Below the pieces are notes generated by a model. That model searched no databases, was not told the origin of the DNA, and saw only the letters and a program-made list of their open reading frames with translations. Shown here in pieces: positions 14,581 to 61,517 of a DNA stretch of 64,000 nucleotides (the first letter of the stretch is position 1; each line of letters begins with the position of its first letter). This DNA comes from Pagrus major (lineage: Eukaryota; Chordata; Actinopteri; Spariformes; Sparidae), in assembly GCF_040436345.1 (NCBI RefSeq), contig NC_133230.1, forward strand, positions 7,895,297 through 7,959,296, written 5' to 3'. The position numbers and the translations under genes were made by a program.

Positions 14581-15034
14581 TGAACGTTGAACCAGCACCC
14601 AGACAGTAGTAATCTCCTACATCTTCAGCCTGAACTCCACTGATCGTCAGAGTGTAGTCAGAACCAGAATAGCTGCCACTGAATCGAGACGGAGTTCCAG
14701 AGTTTAGAGTTGATGAAGTGTATATCAGGAGTTTGGGAGCCTGTCCAGGTTTCTGAAGGTACCAACTGAGATCATCATCAATATTTGAACTCCCTGTGGC
14801 GCTGATGGTCACAGTCCCTCCAAGACTAACAGACTTGGATTTGTCAGCCTGAGTCAGGAAATTGTTTGCAGAAGACTCTGAAATGAGAAATGACAAATCT
14901 TGTGAATAAAAATGAAAAAAGTTAAACAAAAATTAAGTGGAAGGAACAAACTGAATTTGCACCCAACGTTTTCAAAATCTCTCACCCTGACTCAGAAAAC
15001 CCAACATGACAATCAGAGTTATTGGCGACATCAT
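14581..15034 (-). CDS. Ig light chain V gene, family B, copy 1 (V-B1)
   Basis: Second variable family of the array. Leader exon 14986-15034 encodes [18 protein letters not shown] exon is 14581-14877. The domain reads [17 protein letters not shown], then [34 protein letters not shown], and ends [15 protein letters not shown]. Trp35 and Cys88 are present, but the first cysteine (Cys23, expected in TISCTG) is Ala (GCC). No other cysteine is present in the mature domain. The signal at 14553-14580 has CACAGTG, a 12-bp spacer and ACAAAAACC. Octamer variant CTTTGCAT is at 15129-15136. The gene is otherwise intact, so Cys loss is not part of general decay. It lies right of C1 on the opposite strand; joining to J1 would flip the J-C segment. 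Confidence 0.92.
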
Positions 15035-15357
15035 CCTGATGCAGTTTTCAGTGTGAGTGCATGAAAACAGTTCAGACTCTCTGTGACATAAGAACTTAAA
15101 CTGTGAGGAGCAGTGATGCATTAAAATCATGCAAAGTATATTTAAGAAGGCAAACACACACCTGTTCATGTGAAACAGAAAAAGAGGAGGTGAGGTGGAG
15201 TGACAGCTCATCATGTTGAGGATCATTGGACAGTTTAAAGTCCATCTAGAAAATTTAGACTTTGATCTGTTTTACATTTCTTCTCCACATTTTAAACATC
15301 CTGCATTTCACATCTTTATGATCTCACATGACTTTGTCCTCATTAACAGGTCTATAT

Positions 15358-15370
15358 CACCCCCTGCTGG
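15358..15370 (-). promoter_or_regulatory. CTCF-like motif in spacer 1
   Basis: The minus strand reads CCAGCAGGGGGTGAT, close to the vertebrate CTCF core CCASYAGRKGGC. The same motif in the same orientation occurs in all ten spacers (the 11-bp core starts at 15360, 21260, 26016, 30914, 35643, 41486, 46205, 51118, 55842 and 61843). Binding is not shown. Confidence 0.4.
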
Positions 15371-15720
15371 CCAACTTCATCAACACTGACCTCACTATGA
15401 ACTGACACAATTATTGACTGATTTTGAATGTATTCACTATTTCCCTAAATCCTGTTGTTGAGACTTCTTTCTTGCTAGTTGTGACTAGTGATAGCATAGC
15501 ATCCTTTTCAATGTTGGAAAAATAGAGCTGTGTGAATCTTATGGCAGTGAGACACAACTATCACAGGTTATAGTTGGTGAAAGATTGAATTTCATTTGTA
15601 TCTCCAGGTCAAGATGCATCAGAAAAATATCATCATTCTTTAAAATAAACAAGAGAAAGCCTGAGCCCTGTCCTTAGTCAGGAAACTGATAGTGCAAGAT
15701 GTAGGTTATCTTAATTGAGA

Positions 15721-15873
15721 TTTAGCTTAGCTTAGCTGAGACTGATAACATGTGAAAACAGCTGCCATGTCCCCATAGGCAAGTAAATCTGACCATCAGC
15801 ACCTCTAAAGCTGTCGTGTTCCTGACATTTCTGTCTGGTTTTGTTGTGTGTTTAATGCTAAGCTAAGCTAGCC
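15721..15873. repeat. Short repeat with AGCTTAGCTTAGC inverted ends (spacer 1)
   Basis: TTAGCTTAGCTTAGCTGAG at the left and its near inverted complement ATGCTAAGCTAAGCTAGC at the right bound about 150 bp. This looks like a miniature inverted-repeat element. Its core (ACTGATAACATGTGAAAACA onward) is shared with the spacer repeats of the other cassettes. Confidence 0.5.
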
Positions 15874-15915
15874 GACTGCTAATTGACTGATATAACCAAT
15901 ATCAACCTATAACGA

Positions 15916-16984
15916 AGGTCAGACTCTATCTGCTGAGGAAGCTCAGGTCCTTTGGAGTGCAGGGGGCACTCCTGAGGACTTTCTATGACTCTGTGGTGGC
16001 ATCAGCCATTTTCTATGAAGTAGTCTGCTGGAGCAGCAGCATCTCGGCAGCAGATAGGAAGAAACTTGATAAACTTATCAAGAAGGCCAGCTCCATCCTG
16101 GGATGCCCTCTTGACCCAGTGCAGGTGTTGGGAGAGAGCGGGATGATGGATAAACTGTCATCGCTGCTGGTGAAGGAGTCCCACCACTGCAGGACACTAT
16201 CACAGCACTGAGCAGCTCCTTCAGCGGTAGACTGATACACCCCAAGTGTGTGAAGGAGAGGTATCGCAGGTCCAAGTGTGTGAAGGAGAGGTATCGCAGG
16301 TCCAAGTGTGTGAAGGAGAGGTATCGCAGGTCCAAGTGTGTGAAGGAGAGGTATCGCAGGTCCATGTGTGTGAAGGAGAGGTATCGCAAGTCCATGTGTG
16401 TGAAGGAGAGGTATCGCAGGTCCAAGTGTGTGAAGGAGAGGTATCACAGGTCCAAGTGTGTGAAGGAGAGGTATCGCAGGTCCAAGTGTGTGAAGGAGAG
16501 GTATCGCAGGTCCAAGTGTGTGAAGGAGAGGTATCGCAGGTCCAAGTGTGTGAAGGAGAGGTATCGCAGGTCCAAGTGTGTGAAGGAGAGGTATCACAGG
16601 TCCTTCCCTCCTGCTGCTGTCAGACTCTACAACCAGCACTGCTCCCAGGAGACCTCACTGTGCACTGTGCAATAAAAACTGTATTCATAACTCATTTCTC
16701 ATTTGGTTTGCACTAACTGGGCAATTTTCATTCTCATATTTATTATTTATTAATAACAATACAAAGTCCACACTGTTTATAATTACACTGTTTATATTTG
16801 TACATATTATGAATATATGATTCTATTTCTGCTACAGCTCTTCTTCTTACCTTTTTATTAAATTGTTTATTTGTTACTATTATTATTGTTTATTGTTATA
16901 TTGAACTGTCCTTTGGCTGCTGTGACGTACAAATTTCCCCCTTTGCGGGTCTAATAAAGGAATTTCTGATTCTGATTCTGACTC
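15916..16984 (+). mobile_element. LINE 3' end, L2/CR1 group, with internal minisatellite (spacer 1)
   Basis: The 5'-truncated tail of a non-LTR retrotransposon. It encodes the end of a reverse-transcriptase protein (RLYLLRKLRSFGVQGALLR, VVCWSSS, LDKLIKKASSILGCPLD, later AAVRLYNQH). A 3' UTR ends TAATAAAGGAATTTCTGA followed by TTCTGA repeats. The frame shifts before the minisatellite. Without the minisatellite the copy is 709 bp, the same as the copies after cassettes 5 and 9 (709 and 710 bp), so it moved with the segment and was not inserted three times. Confidence 0.8.
16244..16603. repeat. 30-bp minisatellite, 12 units
   Basis: Exactly twelve 30-bp units, starting AAGTGTGTGAAGGAGAGGTA, inside the LINE coding tail. 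Each unit is ten codons (KCVKERYRRS), so the frame is kept. Units differ by single bases (CGC or CAC, AAG or ATG). Confidence 0.95.
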
Positions 16985-17354
16985 TAAATGTGATATCAGT
17001 CAGCACACTTCTGTAAATTTTGAATGTATGATTTGAAAGTTATGTAAGAGTGTTTTGTATATTTGGATTTATGTGTGATATACTTTTCATATCTTTTGCT
17101 TATTTCATCTTTTTGAAAATGAACATTGTAGGATGTTGGTTAAAATAACAGTGTTATTTTTTTATATGATATTTTGATAATATATTTAAATTAATAGGTA
17201 TCGTGTGCTTGGTGAGGTCCCTGTCAGCTCTGTGTTCAGTGGTCTGTGTCAGAGTCTCTTCCTCTTCAGCCGCTGCAGTCGGTTCCTGCTGTAACAGCTC
17301 AGTGTCTCTGCAGTCTGACTGAGGGAGGTTTTTGTACGACGACAAATCACTGTG

Positions 17355-17813
17355 TGAACACATCAACGCTGGTTAGAGTGGGTTCATTCATACAGTAATA
17401 AACTGCTGCATCTTCAGTCTGAACTCCACTGATGGTCAAAGTGAAGTCCAGGTTGCTTCCACTGCCACTAAACCGAGCTGGTGTTCCTGATTCACGTGTG
17501 CTCACAAATTTTATTAGGAGCTTCGGAGTCTGTCCAGATTTCTGTTGATACCAGTACAGATAACTACCATCGTGAGGACGTTTGTTGGTGTTACAGGTGA
17601 GAGTGACAGTGGATCCTGGAGCAGATGTCACTACTGGAGGCTGAGTCACAGTCACCTGACCGCTGCATCCTGCACACGAAAACAAATCATTGATTTATCA
17701 GCAGAAATAAATGAGAGAAAAGGCAGCACATCATGTCTGAAATGTTGCTGAGTGAACCAACCTGTAAAACAGCAGCAGGCCAGCGTCCAGATGAGGATGG
17801 TGATGAGAGTCAT
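17355..17813 (-). CDS. Ig light chain V gene, family A, copy 2 (V-A2)
   Basis: Leader exon 17762-17813, V exon 17355-17669, 12-spacer signal 17327-17354, octamer variant 17916-17923. The domain is intact with both cysteines. CDR1 ([14 protein letters not shown]) belongs to a short class shared with V-A9 and V-A10. CDR3 reads [13 protein letters not shown], nearly the same as V-A10 and unlike all others. V-A2, V-A6 and V-A10 occupy the same position (next to the LINE spacer) in the four-cassette period, and V-A6 does not share this CDR3. Confidence 0.93.
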
Positions 17814-18510
17814 GGTGGTTGTGCTTTCTGCTGTGTTGACTGACAGATCTGAGTCCTGCAGTGTTGAACTCACAGGACTATAAACCTTCTCAGTTCACTG
17901 GAGGATCAGCTGACCATGCAAAGCCTCCTCTCTATGGAAATGATTTCTCTGCTCTCAACACACTGAAGGCAACGTGGGACACAAAATCAGGAGAAATACT
18001 GCTTGGATTTACACCATCTATGATCTTAATGGAACAGAGGAAAATATTTATATTAGAAGTGCAGTTGAGGATTTAAAGATGAGTTTGTGTCCACTGTGGT
18101 TGGTATGATATGTCTGTTTGTCTGCCGTTCATTTACTCACAGGGTTTACTGTAGATAAATAATATATTTAATATCTCTTTAATATGAGTTATCAGTAAAT
18201 TATGATTATTTCAAAAGCATCATGTTAATTTAACCATGTATCAACTGATATAAACTGTGAAGAAATGACTTTGTTTCAAGGAGACTGTAATCGTTTCTCT
18301 GTCAGGAGTAGAAAAGTCAAGAAAAATGAAAGAAATGATTCTTATTTCTTCAATATTTTCAATCCATAACATTGAACAATGTTTGTAGATTCAACAAATA
18401 TGAATATTTCTGTGTTAATATGAAAAGCAGAGAGTGTTTTCAGTGGATAGATGCTTGTTCACAGTGCAGGAGGTTTTTGTACGGCCACTTAATGAGTTTG
18501 TATCACTGTG

Positions 18511-18548
18511 GTACACTTTTGGTGGAGGAACCAAACTCATCATTCACT
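18511..18548 (+). CDS. Ig light chain J segment 2 (J2)
   Basis: Encodes [18 protein letters not shown] donor. The 23-spacer signal has nonamer 18472-18480 and heptamer 18504-18510. Only J2 and J7 begin with Tyr (TAC), and their flanks match closely. Confidence 0.93.
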
Positions 18549-19016
18549 GTAAGTACCAGAGATTTTATTTTTCTGCACCATTAAAAATATTAGACAAAGT
18601 TTTGTGTCAGAATGTGATAAAACAAGACTTAATTCTGTATAATTTACATGTTGTGGATATTTTTTGATGATAATTGAGCTGGTCTGATAACAGTTTGGAA
18701 ACATTTGTGCTGAGATCAATATTCTTTCAGTATTATAGATAATGTGGTATAATATTTGACAAATACCTTGACTTTTCTTTTCTTATGTTTGCAATAAATA
18801 TTTGTTTTTTTAGCAAACTTTGGTTGTAACATTTCTCTCAGCAGCTTTCTAACACTCAGAAAAAATATATGTTGTTTATTTTTTAATTTGTAAAAGTCAG
18901 CAGTTGTTTGGTATAAAGTCAAACGTTGATGCCATAGTATTTATAAGTGAGTTTTCATGAACATCCATTAAAGATGTAGTTTGTGTTCACAGCTCATTAG
19001 TTTAAAGTGGTGAAAA

Positions 19017-19026
19017 GGAAGTGAAA
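19017..19026 (+). promoter_or_regulatory. ETS-IRF composite motif, J2-C2 intron
   Basis: GGAAGTGAAA followed by CAGATG, as in cassette 1. Confidence 0.65.
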
Positions 19027-19462
19027 CAGACAGATGACAAAGTCTTTAACTGTGTACAGATGTTACATTTTTAAACATGAAAATCACTGAAGGGATGAAT
19101 TATTTATTGTCAAACAATATAAAGCAGATATGAAGATTTCAGTAAAATGTTGAATTAGATTTACACCAAAGTCATGTTGATTTTATTGTCTAATTCTTAT
19201 TGATTCATGCTGAGTGTCACAGTAGAAGATGAACTGTTTTAAAAGTCAAAATGACATCAACTTTTATCATTTAGTTTTATTTGTTAAACTCTCATTTCCT
19301 CCATGTGTCACCTCCTCTCCTCTGTCTGATCACAGTATCTTGCACACAGCTCATCCACAGTACTGTTAACCTCTGTCATGTATCATCAGTGTCTCATGTC
19401 CAGCTGTCTGTCCTGCAGTGGAAGTTAATCTGCTCCTTGTGTGTCTCTGCTCTCCCCTCCAG

Positions 19463-19782
19463 CTGGCCCCATGGTCAGGCCCTCCGTCTCTCTGCTTCCC
19501 CCCTCCTCTGAGCAGCTCTCCGGGGGCTCGGCCACGCTGGCCTGCCTGCTGACCGGCTACTCTCCTCAGGGAGCCGCGGTGCGCTGGGAGGTGGATGGTA
19601 CTGAGGTGACAGAGGGGGTCCTGAGCAGCTCAGAGGTGGAGAGCAGCGGACGCTACAGCAGTAGCAGCACCCTGAGCCTGAGCCAGGAGCGCTGGATGGC
19701 AGGAGAGCTGTACAACTGCAAGGTCCTCCATCATGGCCACAGCCAGACCCAGTCCATCCACAGGAGCCAGTGTAAGGCCTAG
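19463..19782 (+). CDS. Ig light chain constant exon, isotype C-A, copy 2 (C2)
   Basis: Opens GPMVRPSVSLL and ends SQCKA, so the terminal cysteine for the heavy-chain bond is present. It has AAVRWEVDG and RWMAGELYNC; Ala in WMAGEL is shared only with C9. Polyadenylation signal is at 19985-19990. The 3' UTR is of the short form shared with C1. J2 and the following V-B2 match cassette 7, but this C exon matches cassette 9 better, which is a sign of exchange inside the array. Confidence 0.94.
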
Positions 19783-20477
19783 AGGGGCTGGCTGAAGTCC
19801 AGAACAGGAGCTGTGTGTGAATCTGAGTTTGAATGTTTGTAGAGGAAACTAAAGCTTTGTGTGACAGAGAACAACACTGCTGTAAAGTGTTGGACAACAA
19901 CAGCTTAGAGAGTGATGTGTGTAGCTCAGCAGCTAGATGTGAGTGTGCTTAATAACTGTCATGATGATGACTGATGTTTTTGCTAATAAAGCTTGAAGTG
20001 ATCAATAACTTTATGAAGTGTTTGGTCTTTTATCTTGTGAAGAGTCATAAGAAATAAAATGGTTTCATAACTTCAGCTGATACTCCTCTCTGTGGAGAAT
20101 GAAACACTTTGGACTCATCATGTAGATATAACATGACATACTCTATTAAATATTGCACAATAATGTGATAAAACAAGACATTTTGAGGTCATTTACATGT
20201 TTCATATATTCGTTGTTTTGATATGAAGCTTGGCTGATATTGCATTTTGGCATCAACATTGTGCAGAGACACTGAAGTTTAAAACTGTATATGGAAGAGT
20301 GTCTGTGAGTCTGTTTCAGCTTTATTTAGATTCATTGTGGTTCTGCTTGATGACTCTTGTGTTCACTGGACCAGTTCTCCTCATCACAGTCTCTTCACCA
20401 ACCCTCTGCACCTGCAGCAGGCCGTTTTCCCTTCAGTCAAACTGAAGGAGGTTTTTGTACGGCTCTGAATCACTGTG

Positions 20478-20936
20478 TGAACGCTCCATCACCATGTTCA
20501 CCCAGACAGTAGTAATCTCCTACATCTTCAGCCTGAACCCCACTGATGGTCAGAGTGTAGTCAGAACCAGAATAGCTGCCACTGAATCGAGACGGAGTTC
20601 CAGAGTTTAGAGTTGATGAATAATATATCAGGAGTTTGGGAGCCTGTCCAGGTTTCTGAAGGTACCAACTGAGATCATCTTCAATATCTGAACTCCCTGT
20701 GGCGCTGATGGTCACAGTCCCTCCAACACTAACAGACTTGGATTTGTCAGCCTGAGTCAGAAAATTGTTTGCAGAAGATTCTGAAATGAGAAATGAGAAA
20801 TCTTGTGAATAAACATTTAACAAGTTAAACAAAAATAAGTGGAAGGAACAAACTGAATTTGCACCAAACATTTTCAAAATCTCTCACCCTGACTCAGAAA
20901 ACCCAACATGACAATCAGAGTTATTGGCGACATCAT
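20478..20936 (-). CDS. Ig light chain V gene, family B, copy 2 (V-B2)
   Basis: Leader exon 20888-20936, V exon 20478-20780, 12-spacer signal 20450-20477, octamer variant 21031-21038. Ala at position 23, Cys88 kept. CDR1 [13 protein letters not shown]2 [12 protein letters not shown]3 [10 protein letters not shown]. Framework 1 has VSVGG where most copies have VSLGG. The encoded domain is identical to V-B7 about 25 kb away. Confidence 0.92.
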
Positions 20937-21278
20937 CCTGATGCAGTTTTCAGTGTGAGTGCATGAAAACAGTTCAGACTCTCTGTGACATAAGAACTTA
21001 AACTCTGAGGAGCAGTGATGCATTAAAATCATGCAAAGTATATTTAAGAAGGCAAACACACACCTGTTCATGTGAAACAGAAAAAGAGGAGGTGGTGGAG
21101 TGACAGCTCATCATCTTGAGGATCATTGGACAGTTTAAAGTCCATCTAGAAAATTTAGACTTTGAGCTGTTTTACATTTCTTCTCCTCATTTTAAACATC
21201 CTGAATTTCACATCTTTATGATCTCACATGACTTTGTCCTCATTCACAGGTCTATATCACCCCCTGCTGGAAAACTTC

Positions 21279-21689
21279 AGCTTAGCTTAGCTTAACACAA
21301 AGACTGATAATATGTGAAAACAGCTGGCATGTCCCTATAGGTAAGTAAATCTGACCATCAACACCTCTAAAGCTGTCGTGGTCCTGACATTTCTGTCTGG
21401 TTTCATTGTGTTTTCTGGATGTTTGTGGTCTGTCTGCACTTTGTTTCCCTCCTGTGTTCCTGTGCTCCTCCCCGGCCTGCTTTTCCCTCCACACCTGCCC
21501 TGCTTCAGCCTCGTTAGCTCTGCCCTGTTCCCAGTGTTTTCACCAGCCAATCAGCTCCTTTCCTGTTCTCCTGTTCCTTCACCTCATTCTCCTCACCTGA
21601 GCTTCTCCACCTATCTCTCCACCTGCACCTCAATACATCGTCAATTTATTTTCCATTTAAGTTCAGTTTTCAGTTCAGTGTTTCTGGAC
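21279..21689. repeat. Spacer repeat, short form (after cassette 2)
   Basis: Starts AGCTTAGCTTAGCTTAACAC, shares the ACTGATAA..CATGTGAAAACA core with the LINE-type spacers, and continues into a C/T-rich stretch (CTGCTTTTCCCTCCACACCT onward) ending near GTGTTTCTGGAC. It is joined directly to ACTTC after the CTCF-like motif, whereas LINE-type spacers have about 350 bp more at that point. Small open frames on both strands show no domain. The family is unidentified. Confidence 0.6.
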
Positions 21690-22046
21690 AAATATAAGAG
21701 TGATATCAGTCAACACACTTCTGAAAATTTGAATGTATAATTTTAAATTTATGTAACAGGGTTTTGTATATTTGGATTTATATGTGATACACTTTTCATA
21801 TGTTTTGCTTATTTCATACCTTGAAAATGTGAGGTGAAAATGGACATTGTGGGATGTTAGTTATCATAACAGTGTTAAATTATTAATAAGTATTGTGTGC
21901 TTGGTGAGGTTCCTGTCAGCTCTGTGTTCAGTGGTCTGTGACAGAGTCTCTTCCTCTTCAGCAGCTGCAGTCGGTTCCTGCTGTAACAGCTCAGTGTCTC
22001 TGCAGTCTGACTGAGGGAGGTTTTTGTACGACGACAAATCACTGTG

Positions 22047-22517
22047 TGAACACAGCAGCACTGCTGATTTCATGGTAACTCTGACAGTAATAAACTGCTG
22101 CATCTTCAGTCTGAACTCCACTGATGGTCAAAGTGAAGTCAGAGCTTCTTCCACTGCCACTGAACCGAGCTGGTGTTCCTGATATACGTTGGCTCACAAG
22201 TGTTATTAGGAGCTTTGGAGACTGTCCAGATTTCTGTTGATACCAGTACATACCCTGAACAGTATCAGACCATCTGTAAACAGCTGGATTTGTCTTACAG
22301 GTGAGAGTGACAGTGGATCCTGGAGCAGATGTCACTACTGGAGGCTGAGTCACAGTCACCTGACCGCTGCATCCTGCACACAAAAACAAATCATTGATTT
22401 ATCAGCAGAAATAAATGAGAGAAAAGGCAGCACATCATGTCTGAAATGTTGCTGAGTGAACCAACCTGTAAAACAGCAGCAGGCCAGCGTCCAGATGAGG
22501 ATGGTGATGAGAGTCAT
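22047..22517 (-). CDS. Ig light chain V gene, family A, copy 3 (V-A3)
   Basis: Leader exon 22466-22517, V exon 22047-22373, 12-spacer signal 22019-22046, octamer variant 22620-22627. Intact. Long CDR1 class ([13 protein letters not shown]). CDR2 region [13 protein letters not shown] is unlike the YVSTRESG consensus. CDR3 [13 protein letters not shown] is close to V-A1. Confidence 0.93.
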
Positions 22518-23214
22518 GGTGGTTGTGCTTTCTGCTGTGTTGACTGACAGATCTGAGTCCTGCAGTGTTGAACTCACAGGACTATAAACCTTCTCAGTTC
22601 ACTGGAGGATCAGCTGACCATGCAAAGCCTCCTCTCTATGGAAATGATTTCTCTGCTCTCAACACACTGAAGGCAACGTGGGACACAAAATCAGGAGAAA
22701 TACTGCTTGGATTTACACCATCTATGATCTTAATGGAACAGAGGAAAATATTTATATTAGAAGTGCAGTTGAGGATTTAAGGATGAGTTTGTGTCCACTG
22801 TGGTTGGTATGATATGTCTGTTTGTCTGCCTTTCAATTACTCCCAGGGTTTACTGTAGATAAACAACATATTTAATATCTGTTTAATATGAGTTATCAGT
22901 AAATTATGATTATTTAAAAAGCATCATGTTAATTTAACCATGTATCAACTGATATAAACTGTGAAGAAATGAGTTTGTTTCAAGGAGACTGTGATCGTTT
23001 CTCTGTCAGGAGTAGAAAAGTCAAGAAAAATGAAAGAAATGATTCTTATTTATTCAATATTTTCAAAACATAACATTGAACAATCTTTATAGATTCAACA
23101 AATATTAATATTTCTGTGTTAATATGAAAAGCAGAGAGTATTTTCAGCGGATAGATGCTTGTTCACAGTGCAGGAGGTTTTTGTACGGCCACTTAATGAG
23201 TTTGTATCACTGTG

Positions 23215-23252
23215 GTGGACTTTTGGTGGAGGAACCAAACTCATCGTTGACT
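23215..23252 (+). CDS. Ig light chain J segment 3 (J3)
   Basis: Encodes [12 protein letters not shown]. The 23-spacer signal has nonamer 23176-23184 and heptamer 23208-23214. Just past the donor the intron changes to the C-B type (ATTTCATACAACATGTAGCA), marking the left edge of the alternative C module. The last J base makes Leu with the C-B exon. Confidence 0.93.
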
Positions 23253-23721
23253 GTAAGTATCAAAGATTTGATTTCATACAACATGTAGCAAATATAACTT
23301 TTATCAAATATTTAACAAGATTCTGATCAAGTTTAATGTTTGTGTATTATTGAAAATGTTTATTTTTATCTGAAGTGAGGCTGATCTCTCAGTCTGAGGC
23401 ACAAGTTTGCTGAAATCAAAATGTATTCAGTGTTCAGTATAATTTTAAGGAACATAAAACTGCTCAGCTATGTTTTATATTCTCCTTTGTCATTACTTTG
23501 AATTAGTTTCTGCTTAAAAATAATCCAAATGAACGTTTTGTGAAGACAAACAAAAAATGCTCAAAACACAGCATCAATAGTTTATTTTAATTCATTCATG
23601 TTTAACTTTTAAAAAGTTTTTAGATTTAAAATCTGAATCATGTTGAACACAATTATGATTTTATCGGTAAATGCAGCTTATCTTTGTGTTCACGCTTCAT
23701 TCATTCTACATGTGGTTAAAA

Positions 23722-23731
23722 GGAAGTGAAA
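23722..23731 (+). promoter_or_regulatory. ETS-IRF composite motif, J3-C3 intron
   Basis: AAAAGGAAGTGAAAGAGACAG in a C-B intron: the same GGAAGTGAAA and CAGATG pair as in C-A introns, though the flanks are poorly alignable by eye. Confidence 0.65.
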
Positions 23732-24085
23732 GAGACAGATGACAAAGGTTTGAACTGTGTTCACATGAGTGTTTCAGCTCTGTCAGTTTCAACAGAAGAA
23801 AATCATCACAGGGATGAGTTATTCACTGTCACACATTATGAAACACACATGAAGATGTCGTCAATAATCATCATCAGTGAACCTTTTTAGTTGCATTTCC
23901 ACTTGAATCATGTGTCTGATGGTCTGATACTGAGTGATGTATGAGAGCAACAGCAGCACAACTTATTCTGTTTGACCTGATCAAATATAAGAAATGAGCA
24001 GTTTGTCATGTGTCTTTATTACCAAGCCTTCACTCTCATGACTTTGTCTTCTCTCCCCCTCTCCTCCCCGCTCTCTCTCCTCCAG

Positions 24086-28634: not shown

Positions 28635-28644
28635 GGAAGTGAAA
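28635..28644 (+). promoter_or_regulatory. ETS-IRF composite motif, J4-C4 intron
   Basis: GGAAGTGAAA then CAGATG. Confidence 0.65.
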
Positions 28645-48834: not shown

Positions 48835-48844
48835 GGAAGTGAAA
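48835..48844 (+). promoter_or_regulatory. ETS-IRF composite motif, J8-C8 intron
   Basis: GGAAGTGAAA then CAGATG. Confidence 0.65.
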
Positions 48845-51547: not shown

Positions 51548-51904
51548 TAATATAAGAGTGATATCAGTCAGCACACTTCTGAAAATTTGAATGTATAATT
51601 TTAAAGTTATGTAACAGGGTTTTGTATATTTGGATTTATATGTGTTACACTTTTCATATATTTAGCTTATTTCATATCTTGAAAATGTAAGGTGAAAATG
51701 GACATTGTGGGATGTTAGTTATCATAACAGTGTTAAATTATTAATAAGTATTGTGTGCTTGGTGAGGTTCCTGTCAGCTCTGTGTTCAGTGGTCTGTGTC
51801 AGAGTCTCTTCCTCTTCAGCAGCTGCAGTCAGTTCCTGCTGTAACAGCTCAGTGTCTCTGCAGTCTGACTGAGGGAGGTTTTTGTACGACGACAAATCAC
51901 TGTG

Positions 51905-52363
51905 TGAACACCCGAGCATAGCCGATTTGATGGTAACTCTGACAGTAATAAACTACTGCATCTTCAGTCTGAACTCCACTGATGGTCAAAGTGAAGTCAG
52001 AGCAGCTTCCACTGCCACTAAACCGAGCTGGTGTTCCTGATTCACGTGTGCTCACAAATTTTATTAGGAGCTTTGGAGTCTGTCCAGATTTCTGTTGATA
52101 CCAGTACAGATATCTACCATCGTGAGGACGTTTGTTGGTGTTACAGGTGAGAGTGACAGTGGATCCTGGAGCAGATGTCACTACTGGAGGCTGAGTCACA
52201 GTCACCTGACCGCTGCATCCTGCACACAAAAACAAATCATTGATTTATCAGCAGAAATAAATGTGAGAAAAGGCAGCACATCATGTCTGAAATGTTGCTG
52301 AGTGAACCAACCTGTAAAACAGCAGCAGGCCAGCGTCCAGATGAGGGTGGTGATGAGAGTCAT
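51905..52363 (-). CDS. Ig light chain V gene, family A, copy 9 (V-A9)
   Basis: Leader exon 52312-52363, V exon 51905-52219, 12-spacer signal 51877-51904, octamer variant 52466-52473. Short CDR1 [14 protein letters not shown] as in V-A2, CDR3 [13 protein letters not shown]. Framework 3 reads [10 protein letters not shown], adding a third cysteine, and EDAVVYYC has Val for Ala. The frame is intact. The leader has one Ile to Thr change (LITTLIW). Confidence 0.92.
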
Positions 52364-53060
52364 GGTGGTTGTGCTTTCTGCTGTGTTGACTGACATATCT
52401 GAGTCCTGCAGTGTTGAACTCACAGGACTATAAACCTTCTCAGTTCACTGGAGGATCAGCTGACCATGCAAAGCCTCCTCTCTATGGAAATGATTTCTCT
52501 GCTCTCAGCACACTGAAGGCAACGTGGGACACAAAATCAGGAGAAATACTGCTTGGATTTACACCATCTATGATCTTAATGGAACAGAGGAAAATATTTA
52601 TATTAGAAGTGCAGTTGAGGATTTAAGGATGAGTTTGTGTCCACTGTGGTTGGTATGATATGTCTGTTTGTCTGCCTTTCATTTACTCACAGGGTTTACT
52701 GTAGATAAATAATATATTTAATATCTGTTTAATATGAGCTATCAGTAAATTATGATTATTTCAAAAGCATCATGTTAATTTAACCATGTATCAACTGATA
52801 TAAACTGTGAAGAAATGAGTTTGTTTCAAGGAGACTGTGATCGTTTCTCTGTCAGGAGTAGAAAAGTCAAGAAAAATGAAAGAAATGATTCCTATTTATT
52901 CAATATTTTCAATCCATAACATTGAACAATCTTTGTAGATTCAACAAATATGAATTTTTCTGTGTTAATATGAAAAGCAGAGAGTGTTTTCAGTGGATAG
53001 ATGCTTGTTCACAGTGCAGGAGGTTTTTGTACGGCCACTTAATGAGTTTGTATCACTGTG

Positions 53061-53098
53061 GTGGACTTTTGGTGGAGGAACCAAACTCATCATTCACT
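53061..53098 (+). CDS. Ig light chain J segment 9 (J9)
   Basis: Encodes [12 protein letters not shown]. The 23-spacer signal has nonamer 53022-53030 and heptamer 53054-53060. Confidence 0.93.
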
Positions 53099-53574
53099 GT
53101 AAGTATCACAGATTTTATTATTTCTGCAACATTAAAAATATTAGACAAAGTTTTGTGTCAGAATGTGATAAAACAAGAATTTATTCTGTATAATTTACAT
53201 GTTGTGGATATTTTTTTGTATAAATTGAGCTGGTCTGATAACAGTTTGGAAACCTTTGTGCTGAGATTAATATTCTTGCAGTATTATAGATAATTTGGTA
53301 TAATATTTGACAAATACCTCGACTTTTCTTTTATTATTTTCGCAATAAAAAATTGTTTTTTAGCAAACTTTGGATGTAACATTTCTCTCAGCAGCTTTCT
53401 AACACTCAGAAAAAAAACATGTTCTTTATTTTCTAATTTGTAAAAGTAAGCTATTGTTTGGTATAAAATCTAACTTTGATGCCGTAGAGTTTATATATAC
53501 ATAAGTGAGTTTTCATGAACATCCAGTAAAGCTGTAGTTTGTGTTCACAGCTCGTTAGTTTAAAGTGGTGAAAA

Positions 53575-53584
53575 GGAAGTGAAA
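53575..53584 (+). promoter_or_regulatory. ETS-IRF composite motif, J9-C9 intron
   Basis: GGAAGTGAAA is kept, but the E-box that follows in the other nine copies is changed (CAAATG for CAGATG). Confidence 0.6.
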
Positions 53585-54022
53585 CAGACAAATGACAAAG
53601 TCTTTAACTGTGTACAGATGTTACATTTTTAAACAAGAAAATCACTGAAGGGATGAATTAATTTATTGTCAAACAATATAAAACAGATATGAAGATTTCA
53701 GTGAAATGTTGAATTAAATTTACACCAAAGTCATGTTGCATTTAATTGTCTAATTCTTATTGATTCATGCTGAGTGTCACAGTAGAAGATGAATTGTTTT
53801 AAAAGTCAAAATGACATCAACTTTTATCATTTAGTTTTATTTGTTAAACTCTCATTTCCTCCATGTGTCACCTCCTCTCCTCTGTCTGATCACAGTATCA
53901 TGCACACAGCTCATCCACAGTACTGTTAACCTCTGTCATGTATCATCAGTGTCTCATGTCCAGCTGTCTGTCCTGCAGTGGAAGTTAATCTGCTCCTTGT
54001 GTGTCTCTGCTCTCCCCTCCAG

Positions 54023-54342
54023 CTGGCCCCATGGTCAGGCCCTCCGTCTCTCTGCTTCCCCCCTCCTCTGAGCAGCTCTCCGGGGGCTCGGCCACGCTGG
54101 CCTGCCTGCTGACCGGCTACTCTCCTCAGGGAGCCGCGGTGCGCTGGGAGGTGGATGGTACTGAGGTGACAGAGGGGGTCCTGAGCAGCTCAGAGGTGGA
54201 GAGCAGCGGACGCTACAGCAGCAGCAGCACCCTGAGCCTGAGCCAGGAGCGCTGGATGGCAGGAGAGCTGTACAACTGCAAGGTCCTCCATCATGGCCAC
54301 AGCCAGACCCAGTCCATCCACAGGAGCCAGTGTAAGGCTTAG
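54023..54342 (+). CDS. Ig light chain constant exon, isotype C-A, copy 6 (C9)
   Basis: Opens GPMVRPSVSLL; AAVRWEVDG and RWMAGELYNC as in C2; ends SQCKA. Polyadenylation signal is at 54580-54585; long 3' UTR form, which separates it from C2. Confidence 0.94.
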
Positions 54343-55071
54343 AGGGGCTAGCTGAAGCCCAGGACAGGAGCTGTGTGTGGGGGGAGCAGGAGGAACACAC
54401 CTGCTGCTCTGATCAATCTGGGTTTGAATGTTTGTAGAGGAAACTAAAGCTTTGTGTGACAGAGAACAACACTGCTGTAAAGTGTTGGACAACAACAGCT
54501 TAGAGAGTGATGTGTGTAGCTCAGCAGCTAGATGTGAGTGTGCTTAATAACTGTCATGATGATGACTGATGTTTTTGCTAATAAAGCTTGAAGTGATCAA
54601 TAACTTTATGAAGTGTTTGGTCTTTTATCTTGTGAAGAGTCATAAGAAATAAAATGGATTATAACTTCAGCTGATACTCCTCTCTGTGGAGAATGAAACA
54701 CTTTGGATTCATCATGTAGATACAACATGACATACTCTATTAAATATTGCACAATAATGTGATAAAACAAGACATTTTGAGGTCATTTATATGTTGTATA
54801 TATTCCTTGTTTTCATATGAAGCTTGGCTGATATTGCATTTTGGCATCAACATTGTGCAGAGACACTGAAGTTTAAAACTGTATATGGAAGAGTGTCTGT
54901 GAGTCTGTTTCAGCTTTATTTAGATTCATTGTGGTTCTGCTTGATGACTCTTGTGTTCACTGGACCAGTTCTCCTCATCACAGTCTCTTCACCAACCCTC
55001 TGCACCTGCAGCAGGCCGTTTTCACTTCAGTCAAACTGAAGGAGGTTTTTGTACGGCTCTGAATCACTGTG

Positions 55072-55531
55072 TGAACACTCCTCTGCCATGGTAGCCCATA
55101 CAGTAGTAATCTCCTAGATCTTCAGCCTGAACCCCACTGATGGTCAGAGTGTATTGAGAACCAGAATAGCTGCCACTGAATCGAGACGGAGTTCCAGAGT
55201 TTAGAGTTGATGAATCGTATATCAGGAGTTTGGGAGCCTGTCCAGGTTTCTGAAGGTACCAACTCAGATCAGCACCAATATTTGAACTCCCTGTGGCGCT
55301 GATGGTCACAGTCCCTCCAAGACTAACAGACTTGGATTTGTCAGCCTGAGTCAGGAAATTGTTTGCAGAAGATTCTGAAATGAGAAATGACAAATCTTGT
55401 GAATAAAAATCTTAAAAGTTAAACAAAAATAAAGCGGAAGGATCAAACTGACTTTCCACCAAACATTTTCAAAATCTCTCACCCTGACTCAGAAAACCCA
55501 ACATGACAATCAGAGTTATTGGCGACATCAT
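55072..55531 (-). CDS. Ig light chain V gene, family B, copy 9 (V-B9)
   Basis: Leader exon 55483-55531, V exon 55072-55374, 12-spacer signal 55044-55071, octamer variant 55626-55633. Ala at 23, Cys88 kept. CDR1 [13 protein letters not shown]2 YDSSTLNSG, framework 3 YSGSQY, CDR3 [11 protein letters not shown] 16-bp stretch present in the other copies upstream of the gene (near 55738) is missing here. Confidence 0.92.
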
Positions 55532-56201
55532 CCTGATGCAGTTTTCAGTGTGAGTGCATGAAAACAGTTCAGACTCTCTGTGACATAAGAACTTAAACTC
55601 TGAGGAGCAGTGATGCATTAAAATCATGCAAAGTATATTTAAGAAGGCAAACACACACCTGTTCATGTGAAACAGAAAAAGAGGAGGTGAGGTGGAGTGA
55701 CAGCTCATCATCTTGAGGATCATTCGACAGTTTAAAGTCGACTTTGAGCTGTTTTACATTTCTTCTCCTCATTTTAAACATCCTGCATTTCACATCTTTA
55801 TGATCTCACATAACTTTGTCCTCATTAACAGGTCTATATCACCCCCTGCTGGCAAACTTCATCAACACTGACCTCACTATGAACTGACACAATTAGTGAC
55901 TGATTTTGAATGTATTCACTATTTCCCTATATCCTGTTGTTGAGACTTCTTTCTCACTAGTTGTGACTTGTGATAGCATAGCGTCCTTTTCAATGTTGGA
56001 AAAATAGAGCTGTGTGAATCTTATGGCAGTGAGACACAACTATCACAGGTTATAGTTGGTGAAAGACTGAATTTCATTTGTATCTCCAGGTCAAGATGCA
56101 TCAGAAAAATATCATCATTCTTTAAAATAAACAAGAGAAAGCCTGAGCCCTGTCCTTAGTCAGGAAATTGATAGTGCAAGATGTGGGTTATCTTAATTGA
56201 G

Positions 56202-56354
56202 ATTTAGCTTAGCTTAGCTGAGACTGATAACATGTGAAAACAGCTGCCATGTCCCCATAGGCAAGTAAATCTGACCATCAGCACCTCTAAAGCTGCCGTG
56301 GTCCTGACATTTCTGTCTGGTTTTGTTGTGTGTTTAATGCTAAGCTAAGCTAGC
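56202..56354. repeat. Short repeat with AGCTTAGCTTAGC inverted ends (spacer 9)
   Basis: Counterpart of 15721-15873 and 36004-36155. Confidence 0.5.
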
Positions 56355-56396
56355 CGACTGCTAATTGACTGATATAACCAATATCAACCTATAATA

Positions 56397-57646
56397 AAGG
56401 TCAGACTCTATCTGCTGAGGAAGCTCAGGTCCTTTGGAGTGCAGGGGGCACTCCTGAGGACTTTCTATGACTCTGTGGTGGCATCAGCCATTTTCTATGG
56501 AGTAGTCTGCTGGAGCAGCAGCACCTCGGCAACAGATAGGAAGAAACTAAATAAACTTATCAAGAAGGCCAGCTCCATCCTGGGATGCCCTCTTGACCCA
56601 GTGCAGGTGGTGGGCAAAAGCAGGATGATGGATAAGCTGTCATCGCTGCTGCTGAAGGAGTCCCACCACTGCAGGACACTATCACAGCACTGGGCAGCTC
56701 CTTCAGCGATAGACTGATAGACCCCAAGTGTGTGAAGGAGAGGTATCGCAGGTCCAAGTGTGTGAAGGAGAGGTATCGCAGGTCCAAGTGTGTGAAGGAG
56801 AGGTATCGCAGGTCCAAGTGTGTGAAGGAGAGGTATCGCAGGTCCAAGTGTGTGAAGGAGAGGTATCGCAGGTCCAAGTGTGTGAAGGAGAGGTATCACA
56901 GGTCCAAGTGTGTGAAGGAGAGGTATCGCAGATCCAAGTGTGTGAAGGAGAGGTATCACAGGTCCAAGTGTGTGAAGGAGAGGTATCACAGGTCCAAGTG
57001 TGTGAAGGAGAGGTATCGCAAGTCCAAGTGTGTGAAGGAGAGGTATCACAGGTCCAAGTGTGTGAAGGAGAGGTATCACAGGTCCAAGTGTGTGAAGGAG
57101 AGGTATCGCAGGTCCAAGTGTGTGAAGGAGAGGTATCTCAGGTCCAAGTGTGTGAAGGAGAGGTATCTCAGGTCCAAGTGTGTGAAGGAGAGGTATCTCA
57201 GGTCCAAGTGTGTGAAGGAGAGGTATCGCAGGTCCAAGTGTGTGAAGGAGAGGTATCTCAGGTCCTTCCTTCCTGCTGCTGTCAGACTCTACAACCAGCA
57301 CTGCTCCCAGTAGACCTCACTGTGCACTGTGCAATAAAAACTCTACTCATAACTCATTTCTCATTTGGTTTGCACTAACTGGGCAATTTTCATTCTCATA
57401 TTTATTATTTATTAATAACAATACAAAGCCCACACTCTTTATAATTACACTGTTTATATTTGTACATATTATGAATATGCGATTCTATTTCTGCTACAGC
57501 TCTTCTTCTTACCTTTTTATTATGTTGTTTATTTTTTACTATTATTATTATTTATTGTTATATTGAACTGTCCTTTGGCTGCTGTGACATACAAATTTCC
57601 CCCTTTGTGGGACTAATAAAGGAATTTCTGATTCTGATTCTGACTC
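56397..57646 (+). mobile_element. LINE 3' end, L2/CR1 group, with internal minisatellite (spacer 9)
   Basis: Third copy of the same truncated LINE tail, 710 bp without the minisatellite. The long open frames on both strands here come from the 30-bp repeat and are not genes. Confidence 0.8.
56726..57265. repeat. 30-bp minisatellite, 18 units
   Basis: Eighteen 30-bp units, the longest of the three arrays. Unit variants (CGC, CAC, CTC before AGGTCC) are grouped, with three CTC units together near the right end, as expected from local unit duplication. Confidence 0.95.
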
Positions 57647-58011
57647 TAAGAGTGATATCAGTCAGCACACTTCTGAAAATTTTGAATATATAATTTGAAA
57701 GTTATGTCAGTGTTGTATATTTTGATTTATATGTGATACACTTTTCATGTCTGTTGCTTATTTAATCTTTTTGAAGATGAACATTGTGGGATGTTGTTTA
57801 TAATAACAGTGTTATATTTTATATGATATTTTGATCACATATTTATATTAATAAGTATTGTGTGCTTGGTGAGGTTCCTGTCAGCTCTGTGTTCAGTGGT
57901 CTGTGTCAGAGTCTCTTCCTCTTCAGCAGCTGCAGTCGGTTCCTGCTGTAACAGCTCAGTGTCTCTGCAGTCTGACTGAGGGAGGTTTTTGTACGACGAC
58001 AAATCACTGTG

Positions 58012-58470
58012 TGAACACATCCACACTGGTTAGAGTAGGTTCATTCAAACAGTAATAAACTGCTGCATCTTCAGTCTGAACTCCACTGATGGTCAAAGTG
58101 AAGTCGAGGTTGCTTCCACTGCCACTAAACCGAGCTGGTGTTCCTGATTCACGTGTGCTCACAAGTTTTATTAGGAGCTTCGGAGTCTGTCCAGATTTCT
58201 GTTGATACCAGGACAGACAATTACCATTGTAAGGACGTTTGTTGGTGTTACAGGTGAGAGTGACAGTGGATCCTGGAGCAGATGTCACTACTGGAGGCTG
58301 AGTCACAGTCACCTGACCGCTGCATCCTGCACACAAAAACAAATCATTGATTTATCAGCAGAAATAAATGAGAGAAAAGGCAGCGCATCATGTCTGAAAT
58401 GTTGCTGAGTGAACCAACCTGTAAAACAGCAGCAGGCCAGCGTCCAGATGAGGATGGTGATGAGAGTCAT
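58012..58470 (-). CDS. Ig light chain V gene, family A, copy 10 (V-A10)
   Basis: Leader exon 58419-58470, V exon 58012-58326, 12-spacer signal 57984-58011, octamer variant 58573-58580. CDR1 [14 protein letters not shown] contains an extra cysteine. CDR3 [13 protein letters not shown] pairs with V-A2. The frame is intact with Cys23 and Cys88. Confidence 0.92.
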
Positions 58471-59167
58471 GGTGGTTGTGCTTTCTGCTGTGTTGACTGA
58501 CAGATCTGAGTCCTGCAGTGTTGAACTCACAGGACTATAAACCTTCTCAGTTCACTGGAGGATCAGCTGACCATGCAAAGCCTCCTCTCTATGGAAATGA
58601 TTTCTCTGCTCTCAACACACTGAAGGCAACGTGGGACACAAAATCAGGAGAAATACTGCTTGGATTTACACCATCTATGATCTTAATGGAACAGAGGAAA
58701 ATATTTATATTAGAAGTGCAGTTGAGGATTTAAGGATGAGTTTGTGTCCACTGTGGTTGGTATGATATGTCTGTTTGTCTGCCTTTCATTTACTCACAGG
58801 GTTTACTGTAGATAAACAACATATTTAATATCTGTTTAATATGAGTTATCAGTAAATTATGATTATTTAAAAAGCATCATGTTAATTTAACCATGTATCA
58901 ACTGATATAAACTGTGAAGAAATGACTTTGTTTCAAGGAGACTGTGATCGTTTCTCTGTCAGGAGTAGAAAAGTCAAGAAAAATGAAAGAAATTGTTCTT
59001 ATTTATTCAATATTTTCAATCCATAACATTGAACAATCTTTGTAGATTCAACAAATATGAATATTTCTGTGTTAATATGAAAAGCAGAGAGTGTTTTCAG
59101 TGGATAGATGCTTGTTCACAGTGCAGGAGGTTTTTGTACGGCCACTTAATGAGTTTGTATCACTGTG

Positions 59168-59205
59168 GTGGACTTTTGGTGGAGGAACCAAACTCATCAT
59201 TCACT
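59168..59205 (+). CDS. Ig light chain J segment 10 (J10)
   Basis: Encodes [12 protein letters not shown]. The 23-spacer signal has nonamer 59129-59137 and heptamer 59161-59167. Confidence 0.93.
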
Positions 59206-59676
59206 GTAAGTATCACAGATTTTATTATTTCTGCAACATTAAAAATATTAAAATTTTGTGTCAGAATGTGATAAAACAAGAATTTATTCTGTATAATTTA
59301 CATGTTGTGGATATTTTTTTTGTATTAATTGAGCTGGTCTGATAACAGTTTGAAAAACTTTGTGTTGAGATTAATATTCTTTCAGTATTATAGATAACGT
59401 GGTATAATATTTGACAAAGACCTCGACTTTTCTTTTCTTATTTTTGCGATAAATATATGTTTTTTAGCAAACTTTAGTTGTTACATTTCTCTCAGCAGTT
59501 TTCTAACACTCAGAAAAAATATGTTCTTTATTTTTTAATTTGTAAAAGTCAGCTATTGTTTGATATAAAATCTAACGTTGATGCCGTAGAGTTTATATAT
59601 ACATAAGTGAGTTTTCATGAACATCCAGTAAAGATGTAGTTCGTGTTCACAGCTCGTTAGTTTAAAGTGGTGAAAA

Positions 59677-59686
59677 GGAAGTGAAA
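59677..59686 (+). promoter_or_regulatory. ETS-IRF composite motif, J10-C10 intron
   Basis: GGAAGTGAAA then CAGATG. About 100 bp present in the other C-A introns are missing further on, near 59867; the motif block itself is kept. Confidence 0.65.
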
Positions 59687-60020
59687 CAGACAGATGACAA
59701 AGTCTTTAACTGTGTACAGATGTTACATTTTTAAACAAGAAAATCACTGAAGGGATGAATTATTTATTGTCAAACAATATAAAACAGATGTGACGATTTC
59801 AGTAAAATGTTGAATTAGATTTACACCAAAGTCATGTTGCATTTTATTGTCTAATTCTTAATGATTCACCTCCTCTCCTCTGTCTGATCACAGTATCATG
59901 CACACAGCTCATCCACAGTACTGTTAACCTCTGTCATGTATCATCAGTGTCTCATGTCCAGCTGTCTGTCCTGCAGTGGAAGTTAATCTGCTCCTTGTGT
60001 GTCTCTGCTCTCCCCTCCAG

Positions 60021-60340
60021 CTGGCCCCATGGTCAGGCCCTCCGTCTCTCTGCTTCCCCCCTCCTCTGAGCAGCTCTCCGGGGGCTCGGCCACGCTGGCC
60101 TGCCTGCTGACCGGCTACTCTCATCCGGGAGCTGCGGTGCGCTGGGAGGTGGACGGTACTGAGGTGACAGAGGGGGTCCTGAGCAGCTCAGAGGTGGAGA
60201 GCAGCGGCCGCTACAGCAGCAGCAGCACCCTGAGCCTGAGCCAGGAGCGCTGGATGGGAGGAGAGCTGTACAACTGCAAGGTCCTCCATCATGGCCACAG
60301 CCAGACCCAGTCCATCCACAGGAGCCAGTGTAAGGCCTAG
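60021..60340 (+). CDS. Ig light chain constant exon, isotype C-A, copy 7 (C10)
   Basis: Opens GPMVRPSVSLL; YSHPGAAVRW as in C8; RWMGGELYNC; ends SQCKA. Polyadenylation signal is at 60578-60583; long 3' UTR form. The J-C intron is 815 bp, about 110 bp shorter than in cassette 9. This is the last constant exon seen in the window. Confidence 0.94.
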
Positions 60341-61057
60341 AGGGGCTGGCTGAAGCCCAGGACAGGAGCTGTGTGTGGGGGGAGCAGGAGGAACACACCT
60401 GCTGCTCTGATCAATCTGAGTTTGAATGTTTGTAGAGGAAACTAAAGCTTTGTGTGACAGAGAACAACACTGCTGTAAAGTGTTAGACAACAACAGCTTA
60501 GAGAGTGATGTGTGTAGCTCAGCAGCTAGATGTGAGTGTGCTTAATAACTGTCATGATGATGACTGATGTTTTTGCTAATAAAGCTTGAAGTGATCAATA
60601 ACTTTATGAAGTGTTTGGTCTTTTATCTTCTGAAGAGTCATAAGAAATAAAATGGTTTTATAACTTCTCTGTGGAGAATGAAACACTTTGGATTCATCAT
60701 GTAGATACAACATGACATACTCTATTAAATATTGCACAATAATGTGATAAAACAAGACATTTTGAGGTCATTTATATGTTGTATATATTCCTTGTTTTCA
60801 TATGAAGCTTGGCTGATATTGCATTTTGGCATCAACATTGTTGCAGAGACACTGAAGTTTAAAACTCTATGTGGAAGAGTGTCTATGAGTCTGTTTCAGC
60901 TTTATTTAGATTCATTGTGGTTCTGCTTGATGACTCTTGTGTTCACTGGACCAGTTCTCCTCATCACAGTCTCTTCACCAACCCTCTGCACCTGCAGCAG
61001 GCCGTTTTCACTTCAGTCAAACTGGAGGAGGTTTTTGTACGGCTCTGAATCACTGTG

Positions 61058-61517
61058 TGAACACTCCTCTGCCATGGTTGCCCAGACAGTAGTAATCTCC
61101 TAGATCTTCAGCCTGAACCCCACTGATGGTCAGAGTGTAGCGAGAACCAGATCTACTGCCACTGAATCGAGACGGAGTTCCAGAGAAGCGAGTTGAGTAA
61201 GTGTATATCAGGAGTTTGGGAGCCTGTCCAGGTTTCTGAAGGTACCAACTCAGATCATTACCAATATTTGAACTCCCTGTGGCGCTGATGGTCACAGTCC
61301 CTCCAAGACTAACAGACTTGGATTTGTCAGCCTGAGTCAGGAAATTGTTGGCAGAAGACTCTGAAATGAGAAATGACAAATCTTTTGAATAAACATTTAA
61401 CAAGTTAAACAAAAATAAAGTGGAAGGAACAAACTGAATTTGCACCAAACGTTTTCAAAATCTCTCACCCTGAATCAGAAAACCCAACATGACAATCAGA
61501 GTTATTGGCGACATCAT
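61058..61517 (-). CDS. Ig light chain V gene, family B, copy 10 (V-B10)
   Basis: Leader exon 61469-61517 (ending LGFLIQG, with Ile for Ser), V exon 61058-61360, 12-spacer signal 61030-61057, octamer variant 61612-61619. Ala at 23, Cys88 kept. CDR1 [13 protein letters not shown]2 YTYSTRFSG, framework 3 RSGSRY, CDR3 [10 protein letters not shown]. Intact. Confidence 0.92.

Follow-up and report, generated by a model that had tools for sequence, protein, structure and literature searches.

An antibody light-chain V family of Pagrus major with alanine in place of the first canonical cysteine

A stretch of 64,000 nucleotides from Pagrus major (GCF_040436345.1, contig NC_133230.1, positions 7,895,297 to 7,959,296), hereafter the window, contains ten light-chain V genes, named V-B, in which codon 23 is GCC (Ala) in place of the first canonical cysteine, as an earlier note on this DNA had claimed. 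Trp35 (TGG) and Cys88 (TGT) are retained in all ten. The replacement is confined to a single clade. Judging by the gene sequences, V-B probably makes working light chains: the genes would be expressed, and the V domain would fold without a disulfide, leaving Cys88 free.

The window is a kappa-type array (V12/J23) of small repeated clusters, in which the V genes are oriented opposite to J and C. The RSS spacers, which serve as one criterion for teleost kappa-type (L1/L3) loci, are 12 in 21/21 V and 23 in 10/10 J. The V-B genes, each with Ala23, are located on the minus strand at 14553..15034 (12-spacer RSS 14553-14580, V exon 14581-14877, leader 14986-15034), 20450..20936, 25207..25689, 30104..30588, 34837..35317, 40679..41160, 45393..45879, 50305..50792, 55044..55531 and 61030..61517. 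All ten lie where they had been placed before, with V exons within 14581-61360, and two of them (V-B at 20478 and at 45421) encode the same protein. Interleaved with them on the minus strand are eleven V-A genes (11409..63094; V exon ends at 11437, 17355, 22047, 26975, 31700, 37516, 42264, 47164, 51905, 58012 and 62636). The V-A label pools families A and C of the earlier note, both said there to bear Cys23, which was found in 11/11 genes (9 TGT, 2 TGC).

On the plus strand, a J segment with a 23-spacer RSS is located at 12567..12642, and nine further J start at 18511, 23215, 28131, 32846, 38684, 43418, 48332, 53061 and 59168. The C domains, also on the plus strand, are of two types, labelled here 'L1-like' and 'L3-like'; these labels are our own and were not derived from reference C sequences. 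The first type is represented at 13576..13884 (ending in SQFKA, two cysteines) and at 19474, 29093, 44382, 49293, 54034 and 60032 (ending in SQCKA, three cysteines), and the second at 24094..24408, 33723 and 39566 (ending in ERCSE, three cysteines). Pfam C1-set was recognized in one example of each type.

The V-B genes of the window are intact. Leader and V exon are free of stops with GT/AG splice sites in 10/10, and an exact CACAGTG-12-ACAAAAACC adjoins all 21 V genes (10 V-B and 11 V-A), which bears out the earlier description of frames, leaders, splice sites and 12-spacer RSS. The V-B leader is 49 nt long (46 counted from the second ATG; in the gene at 25207..25689 the first ATG of two is gone and the second retained), the intron 107–109 nt and the V exon 297–303 nt. 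An octamer-like element is present in 10/10 genes (CTTTGCAT in seven, TTTTGCAT in three), and lies 28 nt from TTTAAG in the two genes measured. CDR1 comprises 11 residues in every V-B gene and 13 or 17 in V-A; for CDR2 the script assumed a fixed length of 7, and the alignment has no insertion there. The Pfam V-set score was 49.1 bits for one V-B gene and 71.2 for a V-A example (cut-off 26).

The pattern ACCATCAG[CT]GCCACAGG matches ten times in the window with no mismatch in any match; with two mismatches allowed, at least ten matches were reached in none of 100 shuffles (mean 2.09). A misaligned position 23 was ruled out, as 11 residues separate positions 23 and 35 in V-B and in the related family V-D alike. 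No inverted repeats were found flanking one V-B gene, and a V-B protein compared with viral contigs gave no confirmed relative. Ala23 places all ten genes outside the IMGT 'functional' class (1st-CYS, conserved Trp and 2nd-CYS), so by that rule they belong to the 'ORF' class, like IGLV1 of torafugu.

Genome-wide, 143 hits were obtained, of which 131 are readable at position 23: 14 V-B genes have Ala and the other 117 have Cys. This upholds the proposal that the loss is specific to the V-B lineage. The four V-B genes outside the window (three GCC, one GCT) bring the family to 14 members in four places, the window and three others, with Ala and Cys88 in 14/14. The claim that GCC occurs in every copy hence stands for the window, and for the genome it becomes 13 GCC and one GCT. 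The leader-plus-V frame is open in 12/14, both frameshifted copies lying outside the window. A degenerate V-B FR1 pattern was found in 14 places; V-B genes account for 11, and the other three, on C9, C21 and C22, were absent from the protein search.

The four genes of the family that we name V-D (C16:16.997–17.022 Mb) carry Cys23 as TGT in 4/4 and are 57–61% identical to one V-B query. V-B forms a single group in two trees (99/96 and 98/94), with V-D as its sister (96/88 and 99/94). The V-D intron is 144 nt, against 107–109 nt in the window V-B genes. A 12-residue segment is common to V-B and all four V-D genes, and an 11-residue segment to V-B and three of them, the fourth having Leu for Trp. 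A V-D relic lies on the minus strand of the window at 63666..63930, with an FR1-FR2 piece at 63784-63930 and a piece in a different frame at 63666-63782.

Since Ala is confined to one V-B clade, a single derived loss accounts for it, and neither ten independent losses nor a base-calling or assembly error does; the latter is further ruled out by the spread of the 14 copies over four places and by the synonymous GCT in one of them. The ten window copies represent a single event as well, because they are duplicates within one array and two of their proteins are identical. Cys23 in the same-genome sister V-D indicates that the Ala state is the derived one, reached by loss of the cysteine. V-B would thus be a kappa-type teleost V family in which Cys23 was replaced by Ala once, on the V-B branch after the split from V-D; it would then have multiplied along with its V-J-C units, copies reaching three further places in the genome.

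This same amplification allows a different interpretation, namely that the loss made the family useless and that V-B, now on its way out, looks intact owing to recent co-amplification with useful V-A, J and C. The single array of repeated units with two identical proteins would agree with it, and so would the two frameshifted copies among 14. Framework pN/pS is 0.59 for V-B and 0.56 for V-A, and leader pN/pS 0.17 and 0.15, so V-B evolves much as the Cys-bearing V-A does, a resemblance that argues against a dying family. V-B values for CDR1, CDR2 and CDR3 are 1.0, 1.83 and 1.18 (CDR3 from the 5/10 genes of equal length). By per-codon change counts, replacements in V-B frameworks were not below the neutral level (p 0.23–0.48), and no replacement excess was found in CDR1+2 (p 0.53–0.83); both are compatible with neutrality. 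The frameworks of V-A gave a non-significant result too (p 0.17–0.44).

V exons are more divergent than introns in V-B and V-A, which speaks for a working V-B. V-B 3′ flanks are more divergent than V exons (12.3 vs. 7.2%). The lack of significance in both counts, the two frameshifts and this excess in the flanks weigh against a working V-B. On the other hand, 12/14 frames are open despite differences of up to 11% between window V exons and up to 25% between 3′ flanks, and Ala persists in 14/14 although GCC is two or more substitutions away from TGT or TGC. Torafugu offers support to both sides: its IGLV1, lacking 1st-CYS, was classed as ORF and not as functional, yet the same Ala state is accompanied there by ESTs (Fu et al. 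2017, PMC5241823). Taken together, we consider decay of V-B unlikely. The earlier argument that diversified CDRs speak against decay is correct as to the intact genes, but CDR diversity is indecisive alone, given the CDR1+2 counts and the two frameshifted copies.

The geometry of the array suggests how V-B would be used. With a 12-RSS and the opposite orientation, V-B could be linked through inversion to the 23-RSS of a neighbouring J, and the product could be spliced to either type of C. Such a layout, with exact RSS and adjacent units placed for inversion, would also suit a family that serves rearrangement itself, through cluster-inactivating joins or as a donor in sequence exchange, under weak selection on the protein. 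However, leader, splice sites, octamer-like element and VL contact residues, needless for such roles, are all kept, and we regard service of this kind as a very improbable reason for the survival of V-B.

In the favoured reading, that of a working light chain, V-B would adopt the ordinary VL fold, with packing holding the core in place of the Cys23-Cys88 bond. AlphaFold2 models of the V exon only give V-B the same six strands as V-A at moderate confidence (mean pLDDT 76 and 74, respectively), and the top Foldseek rows are antibody chains; such models cannot prove the stability of the domain. Y36, Q38, P44, L46, Y49 and Y87, which we take to be the usual VH-contact positions, are kept in 10/10 window genes, so V-B should be able to pair with VH.

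Cys88 is the sole cysteine of leader and V exon in all ten window genes, and no second cysteine was found there or in the J peptides. A substitute cysteine inside the V-B gene is thereby ruled out (0/10 window genes), and the prediction of one free thiol with no canonical partner in germline V or J is supported. Cys88 would stay reduced and is probably buried. Its retention in 14/14 genes after loss of the partner could mean that it is employed otherwise, bonded to VH or to a CDR-encoded cysteine or capped by glutathione or cysteine, in an altered disulfide architecture. That neither V-B nor J of the window supplies a second cysteine makes this less plausible, as do the C domains, nine of ten of which have three cysteines, the usual number for such domains. 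Position 88 sits inside the sandwich of a VL fold, so access for bonding would be poor. We therefore hold such employment of Cys88 to be quite improbable.

The earlier note had suspected that cysteine loss in fish VL might be on record, and a precedent was located. In torafugu (Takifugu rubripes), 14/20 IGLV1 genes are described as 'ORF' with 1st-CYS replaced by Ala; ESTs match the IGLV1 group, and the change is considered possibly torafugu-specific (PMC5241823). The text gives its extent as 'all' in the Results and 'the majority' in the Discussion, and counts 15 IGL ESTs, six of them at L1/L3 loci, so that EST support is thin. The V-B loss is thus not new in kind. Among the open-licence papers examined this was the only such Cys-to-Ala report; others may exist, and subscription journals may hold earlier ones.

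Ala23 in a second genome argues against the torafugu-specific reading, IGLV1 being known here by description. We tentatively suggest, at somewhat below even chances, that a disulfide-less germline VL family was already present when pufferfish and this lineage diverged, and that it has served ever since in the working repertoire, each V-B antibody carrying a free Cys88. If true, it would be a long natural counter-example to the necessity of the Cys23-Cys88 bond, and the family might have heavy-chain partners or stability traits of its own. V domains of antibodies are treated as defined by this bond, and V genes without it are demoted to 'ORF' under the annotation rule of PMC5241823; annotation and repertoire pipelines demanding 1st-CYS may lose a real light-chain family. 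The second genome and the Cys-keeping sister make the loss datable and testable, and V-B and V-D offer a natural matched pair for what the stability of a disulfide-less VL demands.

Known antibodies provide partial parallels. A variant of the human kappa VL REI was reportedly made for the study of the disulfide-free fold. This solved structure (PDB 1AR2) resembles V-B in having a non-Cys residue at 23 (Val23) with Cys88 retained, so a VL fold without the disulfide is possible; unlike V-B, it is a human protein in variant form, with Val23 and His32. Antibody ABPC48, as described in PMC5734687, is natural and lacks one canonical cysteine, but the loss concerns the VH of a single antibody and not a germline VL family.

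The closest match is torafugu IGLV1 (listed in PMC5241823 under GenBank KU350660-KU350678, KU359177-KU359180 and KU365386-KU365407), compared with V-B by its published description. Both have Ala for 1st-CYS, short CDR1 and CDR2, a 12-RSS CACAGTG/ACAAAAACC and V genes mostly opposite to J and C, are intermixed with a Cys-bearing family (IGLV3 in torafugu) and occur in clusters that contain L1 C as well as in clusters that contain L3 C. The distance from the TTTGCAT to the TTTAA element is 27 nt in IGLV1 and 28 nt in V-B (two genes), the V exon 285–300 and 297–303 nt, and 8/10 window J match the torafugu J 23-spacer at 21/23 letters. The octamer (ATTTGCAT in IGLV1, CTTTGCAT or TTTTGCAT in V-B) and the TATA element (TTTAAA and TTTAAG) each differ by one mismatch. 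Leader (40 and 49 nt) and intron (133–140 and 107–109 nt) differ in length, which may reflect drift between species. As described, IGLV3 in turn resembles V-A in the octamer ATTTCCAT, TTTATA, 65 nt to ATG, a 52 nt leader, a long CDR1 and Cys23, and differs in octamer-TATA distance (38 nt, against 49 nt in V-A) and intron length (84–85 nt, against 92 nt).

The window contains a kappa-type light-chain array (C16:7895297-7959296, C16 being NC_133230.1) of 11 V-A, 10 J, 10 C and 10 V-B genes, repeated in the order V-A(-), J(+), C(+), V-B(-) as read on the plus strand. V-B is the family with alanine at position 23, and V-A comprises the interleaved V genes (families A and C of the earlier note), all 11 of which have Cys23. 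In each of the ten V-B genes, position 23 is GCC (Ala), position 35 is TGG and position 88 is TGT. The leader is 49 nt, the intron 107-109 nt and the V exon 297-303 nt long; all ten genes are stop-free with GT/AG splice sites, and one lacks the first of two ATGs. The recombination signal CACAGTG-12-ACAAAAACC is exact in 21 of the 21 V genes, and all ten J genes carry a 23-spacer signal. The earlier note was thus correct in describing a V subfamily with Ala instead of Cys23, intact frames, leaders, splice sites and 12-spacer signals, and neighbouring families that keep the cysteine. Cys88 is the sole cysteine of the leader and V exon in all ten V-B genes, and none was found in the ten J peptides; therefore, the canonical disulfide is impossible in the germline V-B domain, as had been claimed.

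V and J genes are oppositely oriented, and joining would therefore proceed by inversion; judging from the geometry, a V-B gene could join with the J-C of either its own or the next unit. Two clearly different types of C domain lie behind near-identical J genes, one with three copies (24094, 33723, 39566) and the other with seven (13576, 19474, 29093, 44382, 49293, 54034, 60032); they may correspond to teleost L3 and L1, respectively. Three cysteines are present in nine of the ten C domains, and two in the remaining one. The C exon at 13576-13884 (+), following J 12606, ends in SQFKA, compared with SQCKA in the other six of its type, and has lost the C-terminal cysteine that presumably connects to the heavy chain. 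A 30-bp minisatellite occupies three V-B to V-A intervals (16242-16603, 12 copies; 36525-36766, 8 copies; 56724-57265, 18 copies), and fragments of an SLC1A-like gene for a sodium:dicarboxylate symporter lie beside the array at about 1799-2212 and 7052-7360 (-).

The whole genome (785.9 Mb, 25 contigs) was searched at the protein level with one V-B query (E ≤ 0.001), which picks up kappa-like V only; the best 150 of 263 candidates were scored, and the census counts are lower bounds. At least 143 matches were obtained. Position 23 was readable in 131 and unread in 12 (six partial C3 matches and one relic piece without FR1, and five weak matches on C10 and C23). Among the matches listed, Ala23 occurs in 14 of the 131, ten in the window and four elsewhere (C16:7875781 (+), C5:28337577 (-), C16:17026602 (-) and C16:17005032 (-)). 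The claim of GCC in every copy holds within the window, but genome-wide there are 13 GCC and one GCT. The other 117 listed matches have cysteine: 22 V-A, four V-D (a sister family named here), one relic in the window, nine matches of a short-CDR1 family (C3 0.37-0.43 Mb) and 81 further C3 matches, some with stops (78 loci, 76 recognised by a script motif and two by eye, plus two plus one). Hence, the loss is confined to the V-B clade among the matches read, and the lineage specificity proposed earlier is supported. A degenerate V-B FR1 pattern was seen at C9:711987, C21:30292209 and C22:2109237, in mutually identical copies unlike the V-B form. Three V-A relatives (C16:7871409, 7873449 and 7879273, all +) have two extra CDR1 cysteines, e.g., NVNCGSSKC, which perhaps form an extra loop disulfide.

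The closest V-B relatives among the matches listed are the four V-D genes (C16:16.997-17.022 Mb), with Cys23 encoded by TGT in all four; in one of them, C16:17021828 (-), Leu replaces Trp35 and both cysteines are kept. At the end of the array (63666-63930, -) is a V-D relic that retains Cys23; its two pieces are in different frames, the break falling between FR2 and FR3. In the first tree (41 rows), the 14 V-B genes form one group (99/96), and a branch with 96/88 separates V-D and V-B from the other rows. The second tree (38 rows), which took in seven of the 22 V-A rows and 12 of the 90 C3 matches that could be read, gave 99/94 for V-D with V-B and 98/94 for V-B. Both trees are midpoint-rooted as drawn, and the human outgroup is a long branch. 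Because Cys23 is present in all families other than V-B, the simplest reading is one derived loss on the stem of V-B. Getting from TGT or TGC to GCC requires two substitutions or more (three if from TGT), and the lineage therefore passed through another non-Cys state or several bases changed together.

In its substitution pattern, V-B behaves like V-A. The pN/pS values are 0.59 and 0.56 in FRs and 0.17 and 0.15 in leaders for V-B and V-A, respectively, and V-B values are 1.0 in CDR1, 1.83 in CDR2 and 1.18 in CDR3 (the last from five of ten genes of equal length). In V-A and V-B alike, divergence is higher in V exons than in introns, but in V-B it is higher still in 3′ flanks (12.3% versus 7.2% in V exons). 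Changes per codon in V-B were not significantly below neutral in FRs (p 0.23-0.48; V-A FRs 0.17-0.44) nor above neutral in CDR1+2 (p 0.53-0.83), so selection on V-B within the array is suggested but not proved. The leader-plus-V frame is open in 12 of the 14 V-B genes listed genome-wide; those at C16:7876 kb and on C5 have a frameshift near the V exon start. The view that V-B is not decaying is thus favoured by the ratios and open frames, but not by the per-codon counts or the two frameshifted genes.

AlphaFold2 models of the V exon alone, without the J strand, show the same six strands in V-B and V-A (mean pLDDT 76 and 74), and the best 50 Foldseek rows are antibody complexes; this is weak evidence for V-B folding, because such predictors follow the family. 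Residues Y36, Q38, P44, L46, Y49 and Y87, which usually contact VH, are kept in all ten V-B genes of the window. The solved human kappa VL 1AR2, in which the alignment places Val at 23 alongside a retained Cys88, is better evidence for a fold without the disulfide. PMC5734687 describes scFv that fold in the absence of disulfides, as well as a natural antibody, ABPC48, in which one VH cysteine is missing.

The earlier suspicion that cysteine loss in fish VL had been noted before proved right. According to Table 1 of Fu et al. 2017 (PMC5241823), 14 of 20 torafugu (Takifugu rubripes) IGLV1 genes are ORFs with 1st-CYS replaced by Ala and the other six are pseudogenes. The same source reports ESTs matching IGLV1, from a set of 15 IGL ESTs with six at L1/L3 loci; here its text says "all" IGLV1 in the Results and "the majority" in the Discussion. 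As far as torafugu is described there, the window resembles its IGL loci in organisation and in the J 23-spacer (21 of 23 letters for eight of ten J), and the V-B promoter elements come within one mismatch each of those of IGLV1. V-A has the octamer and TATA of torafugu IGLV3, its 65-nt distance and its leader of 52 nt. V-B and IGLV1 have leaders and introns of different lengths; the 133-140 nt of torafugu is approached more closely by the intron of V-D (144 nt). With torafugu compared by description rather than sequence, one loss common to IGLV1 and V-B is the simplest reading, although the losses may be convergent. V-B is a second example of an oddity already in print rather than something new in kind; added here are that the loss is not confined to torafugu, that it appears as a single derived event with a Cys-bearing sister, V-D, in the same genome, and that it is limited to one clade among 131 V matches read.
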